This document shows, in pieces, positions 35,201 through 41,200 of a stretch of DNA of 64,000 bases. The notes beneath the pieces are model-generated. The model did no database searches and was not told the DNA's origin. It saw only the letters and a list, made by a program, of their open reading frames with translations. Made by a program: the position numbers and the translations under genes. The DNA is from Haliclystus octoradiatus. Its lineage: Eukaryota; Cnidaria; Staurozoa; Stauromedusae; Haliclystidae. The first letter of the stretch is position 1, and the number at the start of each line of letters is the position of its first letter. The stretch covers positions 30,020,561 to 30,084,560 of the forward strand of contig OU744447.1 of assembly GCA_916610825.1 (NCBI GenBank), in the 5' to 3' direction.

Positions 35201-38200
35201 CATATTGGTTAATTTCAGGCTTGTTTAACGGTTTATTCAACTGCACTGCCACAGGGCATTCGTAGGATCGAATCATATGCGCATGAAGTGGATATCGCGT
35301 ACCGTCATCGACTGGCTACCTGATTCGTATAACATAGCTGTATCTGCACTACAACTGAACAAGGAACGTTGTATATTACCTTTAATCTTACATATTGGAT
35401 AGAAATGATCTTCCTCATGGATTCCGTTTCACAAGCCCGATCATATGCATTTGATTTCATTTGGAAATCTGGGATTTATAGCAAAGTAACTTTCGACTAA
35501 TTTTAACCATCAGAGAATGAAGGGTGTGAACAGGTAGGAGAGCGCTTCCATTTTTGCTTTTAAATTTTCTTGGTCTTGTTCCATGAATCTCCAAAATTTT
35601 CTTGAATTTGGAAGTTCTTGATTTGTACATATGGTATAATTACTATTTGTCATGTCTTCATTCGCAGAAACCCTCTTTTAGAGGTTGATACATTCCAGCC
35701 CAGCAGTTTCTAGTAAATGCCTCTTCATTGAACGGAATTTTACACTTATTGTTCTACTTAAAGTGCCTATGAAATGAAAAAATGGATATTGAGGTTTTTA
35801 CAGATTATGAATCTGCATGTTCGACATAGTACCATGGCAATATTTTTTTATGAAAATTTTAAGTAAAATGTATCTTTTTCGCATCGCAAACATGATGCAT
35901 TTTGGGGACAAGCGCCTGGGCACTAATTTAGATGTCGTGACGTCAAGAGTTGTACACACGATTTTTCACACAAGCAGACACGAAGGCAAGAGAGAAAACA
36001 TAGTAACTTTGTTCTTCTTTATTCCAACAAAAAAACAATGTCTGGTATTGATTCTTCGGAAACAAACTATGAATCGGAAATCAGTTCATCAAATGAAGAA
36101 ATTTCAACTGCCACACAGCCATACCAAGGTGAACCACTTGCTATGAGCACTGAATTTAGTGGCGAAGAATGCAACCAGGAAGAAGACGCTGACAATATTC
36201 CTCAGCAAACGCTAGAGGCAAGATTTGAAGGGAAATATCCTGACAGTGCTTGGTAAGTAGTCATTGCAATATAATAAAAGCTGCTGTTGGGTTTAAGTTG
36301 TATGGGGTTTTCGAGTATGATTAATGACAACGCTATATGTCTACATGAAATCATATTCACAATTTCCTCTACTCGATGAAGTAGACCTACTTGTTCGCCC
36401 CAATTTACATCAATATTTTGCGTATAGGCTACATGTAAAAAGTAAATTTTCTTTCCTGTACTCATCTGGATTAGGTCTGAAGCAATCTTATCACATTTTA
36501 ATTTTTAGGTGCGAATGTAGTAGTTGCCATAAGTTCTATTATAATTCACAGATAATAGAAACGAAGATAATGGTCAGTTGATTTGAATGCAGTTGATAAA
36601 ACTTCAAAATATTTTCATTGATAAAATCTCAATTATATACACGCAAATATGAAATGTAGGCTACCATAATAAAGTTAATGTAGTAATGTTTGTTTATTTA
36701 CTGTTCATATAATGCTGTTTACATGAAAAATTCCTAAATCAAAAATAATTTTTCAAACATTTCATTGACTGATCTTTCACAGATTTCTTAGAGCTGTTTC
36801 CTACCGATGGCTTATCCGATGGTTGTGTGGGTCGCTTGGATGGGACAATTCGAGACCGCTACCGGCATGTATATACCACAGTATACGAACGAAGTTTGGT
36901 AATGGTGGGATGCACGGCTACCTAGTTGCAACAAAGAGACTGTAAATATATTGTTTGTATAAATATCTCACACTCCTGTAAAAAATATACGGCATAAAAA
37001 AATAAAAAATTAATATTCAAGAAAATGAAAACCACTCTTTCTATCACAAAGCAAATGTAGGTCTATACATACAATACCTTCCTAAACACACGACCCAATT
37101 TTATGACCTTTCCTAGGTTTACCGCATGATCTGCACATCGGTGCCTTTCGAGTGGAAGTAGAAGTGCTGTTTACAACTTGCTGACTTTGCGATTCCTTCT
37201 CTGCCGCCAATGGTACCAATTGTGGTCATACTGAGCTTGGGATTTTCTCTCTTACACCGAAAACAGAACATAGCAAACAAATTAAATAACATAGAATAAA
37301 AAACAATGAATTTTGGTTGGTCTTCAACAGGAGTATCAGCATCGACCCTGCAACAGAAAGAATATACAAAAATAATCAATCAATGAATCCTAGGAATGAA
37401 ACAAACCTACAAGTACTGGTATGCCCACAAGTGTAAAGGTCATTGGCTACTTATCTTCCACAGCTGATACCTAGGACATTGCCATATCTGAATATTTAAA
37501 GTTCTGAAATAGATACCCCAAAAATTTTCAAGACTATGAGAAGTTACCCTCAATAATTGGCAAGTGCCGTATGCAAGCCATTTGGAGTTACCCCCAGGGG
37601 CTATCAAAATGCCTCTTACTTCACACTATTAATTGTTTCTTCTTTCTCGTCAGTATCATTCTAGTCTATGTCTTTGTGTTCATCTATTTTGAAATCCTCG
37701 TCACTATCAATACAATGTTCGTCATCACTGCCCTCGTAGTATGTAACGGCATCCTCAATGGTTGTGGGAACGTGAGCAGGCACGCAATTGTCATGCAAAG
37801 TTGCCTACACGTAAGTAATTTCATATTTAAAACCCTACATGTGTACAAAACACTTCAGTAGAGACATAAATTACAGATTAAATTAGCAGTTAAATTTTAA
37901 TGTTACTAATGCATGTACTTACATGACTCACACTTTCGAATCTAACTTTCAACTGCCTGATGGAATTTTTTAATCTGTAGTTTGCCTTAAGAAGGTTTCT
38001 TCTTTTTATTGACAACTGTTGACAACGTTGGCAATTATTGTTTGATGACACCTTAATATGCTGTTGGACCAAAGACGATGCAGAAAGAATTGGACTAGTA
38101 CACGAGGGTTCTTTATCAGGTATAGAGGTTTCCATGTGAGTTGAACATGGTGACTCAGGCAACTCTGGTTTCACAGGAGGACAGTCTTCAGACTTTGTAG

Positions 38201-41200
38201 AAGCAGGAATCAAGGAAGAACCACAAAGTGCATTTCTGATAATCTGAAGATTTTTATATTGCATATTATAATTATTTATCTGCCTGGATTTAAGTTGTAA
38301 TATGTATAGTAACAAGTAAAACCTGTTCATAATTTGTGTGGCAAGTCCTACCTGTCTTTTTTCACGTTTTGATACGTTCTTACTTTCCACTGTAAAACTA
38401 GAATCAGTATGAATAGTTGGAACAGCTCCAAACTGAAGACGTATCTTTTTAGGTGGAGAACAAACCAACGATTCAGGCATATCGGTCAATGATATATCTT
38501 GACGCCGAACAAACGAAGTAGGCTCAAAATGAACGGAGCATAATTGAGAAGTTGGAGAAGGGACAAAATCACTACGATGAACCTTCACGAAAGCCGTCCA
38601 TAACCTGTTTGTTTCTTTATTCTTCGGGAAAGTATGCAATGAAATGCCCTTTATACCTGTTTTGTTTGTACAACTAACCTGGTTTGCAACACCTGCTACG
38701 CAGTATTTGCCCCCTCTTTGACTAGAAGTAACCTTAACCATAGGATTAACTCTGTCCGCCATGCTTGCTTAGATCTCTTGTTCTGCTTGTGTACAACTCT
38801 TGACGTCACGCGCCTCATTTGCATAATCTGACCGCGTAAAAAGTGTCCCTCGAAATGTAGCGAAAATGCCGACTTTAGGCAATAAAAAGGTAGGTTAAAA
38901 TGTGTTTGTTTAAAAAAATATATATATCATCGGAATCAGCGTAAAAAACTCTACAATAATATGTGAAAACCTCAATACCCATTTTTTCATTTCATAGGCA
39001 CTTTAATCTATTCTTATATGAGTATAGTTTGTTTTCTCATTCTTTGGAAATTCAGGCATCATTCCATTTTCTATCGAATTGTAGAAATGCCTCCTCATAT
39101 AAGTATTTGCATATATCATCTTTTCATCTAAATTTTTGCTGTGGCAGACTTCCACAGCAAACGCTATTGCGTAGAGGCTCGCAGTCCAAACAGTTTGGCT
39201 GTTGATCCACATTCAGTGTAACTACTTCGATCAGCTGATTCCACTGTCTATAGAACTTTTTCAGCGATCGTTTCAGAATGGGCTTCAAGTTTTAATCGAG
39301 AAACATGCCACATGGATATGCCTGTATCATGCTGTCCAATAAATAGATAGTTTTATAATTTGATAAACATAACTGTACCCATAGCTTTTTCATTTCTACA
39401 TTCACGGGAACCCTCTCTCTTTCTGGTAAGTAGAAGAGGATACGTTCCAGCCCTGCAATTTCTGGGAAATGCCTCTTCAACTTCTGTGTGACGAAAGATA
39501 ATGGTTATCTGACAATCATGCCCCTCTACTCATAGCATCCATTTCGTCTTCATTTAAGCTGAAGGCCTGTTACGAAAGATAATGGTTATCTGACAATCAT
39601 GCCCCTCTACTCATTGCATCCATTTCGTCTTCATTTAAGTTGAAGGCCTGTTACGAAAGATAATGGTTATCTGACACTCATGCCCCTTTACTCATAGCAT
39701 CCATTTCGTCTTCATTTAAGTTAAAGGCCTGTTACGAAAGATAATGGTGATCTGACAATCATGCCCCTCTACTCATAGCATCCATTTCGTCTTCATTTAA
39801 GTTGAAGGCCATGTCTGAGGGGAAAATAATGAATAATTTCATCAGAGATTAGCTTCAGGTTATTCATGTCAATATCAGCTTTCCACATGAGTCACCAACT
39901 GGACGCAACTGCATGTTACAGATTTAATGTCATATAATAGATTGGTGTTATTGTAGAAGATATTAACAAACATCCCCCTCCTATAACATAAGACTGCATT
40001 TCTTGGATAAGGATTTTCAACTTTTTTGTCAAGCAGATAACCCTAAAACTCTCTACTCAATCGTGTCAGCAATCAGATAGGTTTGTAGTTTCATTTGTTG
40101 TATTGTGGTTAATGTATAATAGGATGATTGACATCTTTATACTGTATAATTATATATTGGTTGACTTTTGTAGACATCGATATCATAAAATGGATTATCT
40201 ATTAAAGAATAAAATAACCCATTAGATCAAGTATAGATACTAATTAGCAGTGCTTCGTCATGCATGGAATCCGAATCAGACACATTTGTAGATTAGTCAT
40301 TACAGAACCTCGAAGTTTGGAATTGACAGGGTTACAGATATTTTATTTTGTTTAAAGAATTCATATTGGTTAATTTCAGGCTTTGTTTAACGGTTTATTC
40401 AACTGCACTGCCACAGGGCATTCGTAGGATCGAATCATATGCGCATGAAGTGGATATCGCGTACCGTCATCGACTGGCTACCTGATTCGTATAACATAGC
40501 TGTATCTGCACTACAACTGAACAAGGAACGTTGTATATTACCTTTAATCTTACATATTGGATAGAAATGATCTTCCTCATGGATTCCGTATCACAAGCCC
40601 GATCATATGCATTTGATTTCATTTGGAAATCTGGGATTAATAGCAAAGTAACTTTCGACTAATTTTAACCATCAGAGAATGAAGGGTGTGAACAGGTAGG
40701 AGAGCGCTTCCATTTTTGCTTTTAAATTTTCTTGGTCTTGTTCCATGAATCTCCAAAATTTTCTTGAATTTGGAAGTTCTTGATTTGTACATATGGTATG
40801 ATTACTATTTGTCATGTCTTCATTCGCATGTCATGTCTGTTGTACATGGGCTGTACCCACAGCTTTGTCATGTCTTCATCCGCGGAAACCCTCTTTTAGA
40901 GGTTGATACATTCCAGCCCAGCAGTTTCTGGTAAATGCCTCTTCATTAAACCAAATTTTACACTTATTGTTCTACTTAATCTATTCTTATATAAGTATAG
41001 TTTGTTTTTTCATTCTTTGGAAATTCAGGCATCATTCCATTTTCTATCCAATTGTAGAAATGCCTCCTCATATAAGTATTTGCATAGATCATCTTTTCAT
41101 CTAAATTTTTGCTGTTGCAGACTTCCACAGCAAACGCTATTGCGTAGAGGCTCGCAGTCCAAACAGTTTGGCTGTTGATCCATATTCAGTGTTACTACTT

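Follow-up and report, generated by a model that had tools for sequence, protein, structure and literature searches.

A probable core-deleted member of a KolX-bearing, Kol0-type Kolobok transposon family in the staurozoan Haliclystus octoradiatus

How a transposable element comes to carry a gene resembling the C-terminal region of P2X7 is the question raised by a locus in the genome of the staurozoan cnidarian Haliclystus octoradiatus (assembly GCA_916610825.1, contig OU744447.1). Within the 64,000-nucleotide stretch analyzed here (positions 30,020,561 to 30,084,560 of the forward strand; hereafter the window), a 3241-bp element at window positions 35762-39002 is bounded on both sides by TTAA and terminal inverted repeats (TIRs), and contains a THAP gene on the minus strand that converges with a P2X7-C-like gene, termed KolX below, on the plus strand. 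An earlier, sequence-only reading had called the element Kolobok-like and held that the P2X7-C-like gene lies where the transposase core should be, either as cargo or as a second element-encoded protein. We present a full-length relative that holds both the gene and the core; the former does not stand in the place of the latter, because the core was removed next to KolX. Comparison of these sequences makes it very probable that the element of the window belongs to a KolX-bearing Kolobok family of the Kol0 type with a two-gene 5.5-kb parent, that internal deletion has left it non-autonomous, and that a full-length relative would move it in trans.

In what follows, copies of the window element and other loci compared with it are labelled L###, and contigs C#, C2 being the one that bears the window. 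Full-length copies were sought with the FIVF block of the window element and the C-terminal block of L022, both being required in one copy, and the relative that we read end to end (C2:26127669-26133191) is 5523 bp long with TTAA on both sides. On its plus strand, three exons (277-491, 747-992 and 1247-1409 in element positions) with GT/AG splice sites make up a KolX of 207 aa; its minus strand encodes the THAP domain, the FIVF block, the motifs GDGRFD, SDRH, DIWH and CLEGF, and the C-terminal block. The four motifs, which we take to hold the catalytic residues of the transposase, match by pattern a DDD/E triad with C/DxxH; the parts encoded on the minus strand are spread over several reading frames, with introns or damage as possible reasons. 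A second copy, L048, was aligned over positions 1927-5523 of this relative, where it is collinear with it at 96.1% identity. The Kolobok-like character claimed for the element is thus upheld by its ends, TTAA sites, THAP domain and the core motifs of the full-length relative, and the option of a second element-encoded protein, moving with the element, by the two-gene organization of that relative.

Against the full-length relative, the window copy displays two deletions, and the three remaining blocks are 98.2, 99.0 and 96.8% identical to it. One deletion, with its junction at 37210..37211, took about bases 1675-3698 of the 5523-bp relative, so that ~2.0 kb including GDGRFD, SDRH, DIWH and CLEGF are gone and the transposase is incomplete; it also accounts for the stop of the THAP protein soon after its FIVF/CFRCK block, correctly noted in the sequence-only reading. 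The other deletion, of 226 bp, covers most of KolX exon 2. The window copy is hence a shortened derivative, from which the core and most of KolX exon 2 were deleted in separate losses, and is probably not self-sufficient. What remains of the transposase on the minus strand comprises the first coding exon with the THAP domain (38352..38762; Pfam match at 38409-38675, scoring 47.5 bits against the PF05485 cut-off of 23.9), the FIVF/CFRCK block (37215..37346), which by comparison with the full-length copy precedes the catalytic core, and DNA of the C-terminal tail (37085..37210, its end coordinates being transferred from the open reading frame (ORF) of the full-length copy). An open frame through the junction reads this tail DNA in a frame different from that of the full-length copy. 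On the plus strand, alignment with intact copies places KolX exon 1 at 36038..36252, directly followed by the donor GTAAGT; exon 2 survives as a remnant at 36509..36532 that keeps the CECSSC cysteines but lacks its remainder and donor; and exon 3 (36783..36945; YRWLIRW..PLPAC..IRTKFG..GY, ending in TAA) is identified by alignment and Pfam. Of the KolX cysteines, C73, C75, C78 and C183 are left.

The plus-strand exons of the window copy were recognized as P2X7-C-like mainly through better-preserved copies. Exon 3 by itself reaches 17.3 bits with the P2X7-C profile PF20478, under its cut-off of 23.5, because most of exon 2 is lost, and the spliced KolX of L022 reaches 28.0 bits. The P2X7-C assignment made from the sequence therefore holds for the family, with the qualification that the copy on which it was made is damaged. 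Seven KolX cysteines (C73, C75, C78, C91, C92, C113 and C183) align with those of two other ballast ORFs of the genome, to which KolX is 28 and 30% identical overall, and one of the two, the paralogous ballast ORF of the locus L049, matches solved P2X7 chains with an E-value of 1.8e-16.

These features agree with a published group of elements. According to the sections of Kojima and Bao 2022 (PMC9587614) on which we draw, Kolobok elements of the Kol0 lineage, reported from vertebrates, annelids, cnidarians and sponges, carry, next to the transposase gene, one for KolX, a protein resembling residues 476-595 of human P2X7, the seven-cysteine cytoplasmic ballast, and both P2X7 and Nanor derive from KolX. 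The same sections give 5'-RR/YY-3' termini as the distinction between Kolobok and piggyBac, and the parts of a study of Xenopus elements cited here (PMC6004289) list a THAP domain and an H2CH zinc finger as Kolobok features. The elements described here share with Kol0 (Kolobok-1_XT type) the TTAA duplications, 5'-RR/YY-3' ends, a DDD/E transposase with DxxH and a KolX ballast with seven cysteines, the last recognized by the PF20478 match and the cysteine alignment; they differ in the window copy's loss of the core and of most of KolX exon 2. The convergent three-exon layout of KolX is recorded here in a staurozoan. With the ballast domains of P2X7, Nanor and the ZCD proteins, as presented in the parts of Rump et al. 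2020 cited here (PMC7016195), KolX shares the cysteines WCxC..C, CC, C and PxC and the pattern YR..W..LG..R..PxC..R, whereas it is encoded by the element as a protein of its own and has no channel. Those parts see in the ZCD/ballast domain of animals an ancient module of ancestral, shared synteny, and the string "transpos" does not occur in the text as available. In section 11 of the same paper, ZCD proteins of Ixodes are reported to bear a TolA or "TAHP" domain at the N-terminus; if "TAHP" stands for THAP, these would be THAP-ballast fusions. The Xenopus Kolobok elements and their MITEs have in common with our elements the combination of THAP and DDE transposases with amplified non-autonomous relatives, but they belong to a different family and host, and "KolX" is absent from the available text of PMC6004289. 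In the literature searched, the term KolX and a link between the ballast and transposons were met only in PMC9587614, and no later or host-specific work on the pairing was among the titles listed. The pairing, of which the sequence-only reading knew no description, has thus been in print since 2022, and the staurozoan element is an incremental addition to it.

Insertion at TTAA can be observed directly in the window. The inverted arms (35758-35808 and 38956-39006) are 51 nt long including TTAA and 94% complementary; they consist of the left target-site duplication (35758..35761), the left TIR beginning with AG (35762..35808, plus strand), the right TIR finishing with CT (38956..39002, minus strand) and the right duplication (39003..39006). 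The termini are hence AG...CT, that is, 5'-RR...YY-3'. A second, fully complementary inverted pair of 23 nt lies inside the element (35936..35958 on the plus and 38788..38810 on the minus strand). Since the flanks are duplicated DNA, of which two sister units are uninterrupted and carry one TTAA, self-comparison of the window reveals the paralogous empty sites outside the element (33761..33764 and 40976..40979); the inverted repeats and TTAA duplications seen from the sequence are thereby substantiated. The surrounding region, 33219-42391, is made of overlapping duplicated blocks, with the element inside one unit and the empty site kept in two others; paired blocks are 34326-35666 and 39487-40828 (99%), 33761-34571 and 39003-39814 (97.5%), and 33616-34342 and 40830-41560 (93.6%).

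A genome search with the terminal repeat, as had been suggested from the sequence, discloses a multicopy family. The first 501 bp of the element served as one query, for which the best 40 of 148 first-look candidates were kept and all examined (39 outside the window and the window copy), and TTAA with the first 189 bases as another (best 40 of 154). Both ends are paired in 26 of the 40 places; in all 26 the flanking 4-mers are identical to each other (TTAA in 25, ATAA in one) and the flanks themselves differ. The exception, L013 (C5:18836408), duplicated ATAA in place of TTAA upon insertion. Twenty-five copies (the full-length copy, the window copy and 23 others) were aligned to the 5523-bp reference, the remaining 15 places (L032 twice and L034-L046) being omitted from these counts as diverged, truncated or mainly end-matching. 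At least part of KolX is retained in all 25, so that the same ends do enclose KolX repeatedly, and the outcome that the sequence-only reading had named as its refutation did not occur. The whole catalytic core is gone in 24 of the 25, by way of one of three junctions, which in full-length coordinates are 1674/3699 (six copies, the window included), 2250/4160 (15 copies) and 2068/3850 (three copies). One indel in 3241 bp is all that distinguishes the window copy from L009, which lies at a different site, and six copies of 3619 bp are 0-2 bases apart. Such near-identity at different sites suggests that the family moved recently. Likewise, the same deletion junction at different sites demands movement after the deletion, which points to a source of transposase that acted in trans on the core-less copies; sharing of junctions through segmental duplications that include the flanks is unlikely, given that all 26 flanks differ.

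The pairing of KolX with a transposase extends beyond this family. A genome search with PF20478 returned eight ballast matches, the three-exon KolX of the window family lying beneath its reach. A transposase fragment lies within 5 kb of seven of these eight, always convergently; as the query was the fragment adjoining the ballast ORF in L049, one of the seven pairs is the query locus. The fragment is called Kolobok-like on account of weak matches (E 7e-5 to 4e-3) to the cores of the window family and its relatives; Pfam names no family for it. Among 60 KolX-like clusters, which take in the window family and its diverged relatives, 41 have a convergent transposase block within 5 kb, one a block on the same strand and 18 none; reciprocally, of 50 transposase clusters, 41 have a convergent KolX, eight lack one and one has it on the same strand. 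By chance, ~0.2% of positions would qualify. The 60 clusters hold many copies of one family and the 41 pairs are not independent events: by our count, the window family accounts for 23 and diverged loci for 18, some of the latter possibly copies of one another. At C1:8435470, C2:30532092, C10:3964308, C11:10486415 and C4:29059320, KolX-like exons of 46-57% identity are convergent with diverged transposase blocks.

It had further been suggested to ask how often THAP genes lie within 3 kb of P2X7-C sequences. With a genome set of 149 THAP rows (150 of 219 candidates scored), such an association is found for 23 of the 60 KolX-like clusters (23 convergent), rising to 31 (30 convergent) within 6 kb, and for none of the eight Pfam-level ballast ORFs, even within 60 kb. 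L049 (fragment at 186-895, plus strand) and six more Pfam-level loci, where Kolobok-like transposase pieces and ballast ORFs converge and THAP is missing up to a distance of 60 kb, form an L049-type group that may be a separate KolX-bearing lineage. In L049 (3474-3776, minus strand) and L050 (3145-3456, minus strand), a cysteine-rich ORF (C..RRSGKKSGCPCKD... and similar) precedes the single-exon ballast ORF, both being on one strand; that of L049 has no Pfam match, and these cysteine-rich ORFs are possibly the N-terminal exon of a second KolX gene type. The sole Pfam-level ballast match of the eight without a transposase block within 5 kb, C8:13679168-13679488, contains two in-frame TGA codons, and would be a relic or a host gene.

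Viewed by itself, the window copy, which lacks the core and gives much of its length to the P2X7-C-like gene, could be explained by an element that took a host P2X7-C gene in place of its transposase core and then spread it. With both genes present in the full-length relative, the 46-57% identical KolX-like exons convergent with diverged transposase blocks elsewhere, and the association already published in the cited sections of PMC9587614, we consider such a capture highly improbable; the full-length two-gene copy, which makes cargo unnecessary as an explanation, leads us to reject it for the window family. Still less credible, to the point of being negligible, is a piggyBac-type element with a ballast-like fragment. 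TTAA sites are compatible with it, and a few piggyBac families encode a protein like the C-terminus of KolX, but, as far as those sections describe them, these proteins lack most of the seven cysteines retained here (PMC9587614). In addition, the AG...CT ends are not of the piggyBac type. We rejected this candidate on the Kolobok-type ends, the THAP domain and GDGRFD/DxxH core, and the seven cysteines. Pfam returned no piggyBac family, and no Kolobok family either, among five proteins (E<=1) or pieces of the core (E<=0.1). A core-deleted member of a Kol0-type family accordingly remains the interpretation that we favor by far. Several points do weigh against it: the end-to-end reading covers one full-length copy, whose transposase splicing is predicted; Pfam named no transposase family for the core pieces tried; the label Kol0 derives from KolX and superfamily traits; the element and its genes are known from DNA sequence; and Pfam recognizes KolX of this family weakly (28.0 bits), while a phmmer search of the L022 protein against the PDB gave no P2X7 chain, the sole match (E 0.26) being an unrelated protein. 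Because of this last result, the link between KolX and P2X7 is carried by Pfam, the cysteines and the L049 paralogue.

Two further proposals concern the reason for which the shortened copies persist. Their core-less THAP proteins might compete with the transposase for the ends and so act as regulators, for which the KP-like repressor offers a comparison. Of 24 copies tested (the full-length copy among them and L014 left out), 20 have an open first THAP exon, with a pooled ratio of nonsynonymous to synonymous differences (pN/pS) of 0.53 among open copies, and competitive binding has been proposed for Xenopus Kolobok transposases without catalysis in the cited parts of PMC6004289. The copies are young, however, and may owe their open frames and a pN/pS below 1 to full-length ancestors; the pN/pS of KolX, with sequence pairs of unequal length skipped, is about equal (0.56), and expression of THAP from truncated copies is predicted. 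We thus deem a regulatory role unlikely. The other proposal, that selection keeps KolX in the deletion copies for an action in cis or for its dose, appears to us less likely still. All three core deletions spare KolX, and 10 of the 24 core-less copies have it intact; yet it is damaged in the other 14, among them the window copy and L009, whose in-frame loss of most of exon 2 together with its donor was scored as damage. Over all 25 aligned copies, the three-exon frame is intact in 11, shows this in-frame loss in two and is broken in 12. The subterminal DNA may simply be required for transposition, and in some elements with related ends no KolX was detected. As the KolX pN/pS is not separable from that of THAP, no special retention of KolX is supported. 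The window copy and L009 have the 226-bp loss in common; L015 and L032 lost exon 2 through other breakpoints, making at least three losses in all.

For the Kol0-type family itself, we propose that the 5.5-kb parent would encode KolX, a predicted seven-cysteine P2X7-ballast protein, convergent with a THAP-headed DDD/E transposase. The THAP domain would bind the terminal or subterminal repeats, and the DDD/E core would excise the element and insert it at TTAA, with KolX in a putative accessory role in transposition; core-less copies, keeping both ends, could then be moved in trans by a full-length relative. We also entertain, as a doubtful extension, that KolX is a working part of transposition kept under selection in the deletion copies and that nearly all Pfam-detectable ballast ORFs of this genome (seven of eight convergent with a Kolobok-like transposase block) are transposon-borne, the L049-type group with no THAP detected nearby among them. 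Were this true, the ballast domain of animals would go back to an accessory protein of transposons that hosts received repeatedly, and not to a host module. The staurozoan family lends further support to the published derivation of the P2X7 ballast domain from a Kolobok accessory protein, and, being young, with near-identical copies, a two-gene relative and intact KolX frames, it offers a test bed for the job of KolX.

Eleven of the 15 omitted places (L036-L046) resemble the full-length copy mainly at the ends. When compared by place, eight of these (L037, L038, L040-L042 and L044-L046) yielded no KolX piece; related ends therefore also bound other interiors. L044-L046, three of the 26 paired-end copies, represent a related family with common sequence of only ~200 bp at each end. 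More generally, what L044-L046, L038, L039 and L043 share with the window family is confined to the first 20-220 bp of the ends, and at L038, L039 and L043 one nearby end-like stretch continues ...GAATTT, not ...GAAAAA. Several element families may hence share end recognition.

Elsewhere, an Rfam scan of window positions 33000-43000 and a search of a phage collection gave no match. In the mitochondrial DNA of the assembly, cox1 stays open under genetic code 4 and is oriented opposite to cox2 (genes named by our own reading), which is consistent with a medusozoan. The window contains a further THAP match on the minus strand at 3663-3872 (C2:30024223-30024432; 35.3 bits), and a dense short-period tandem repeat at 53237-53786, with self-match shifts growing by ~6 bp at 96-98% identity.

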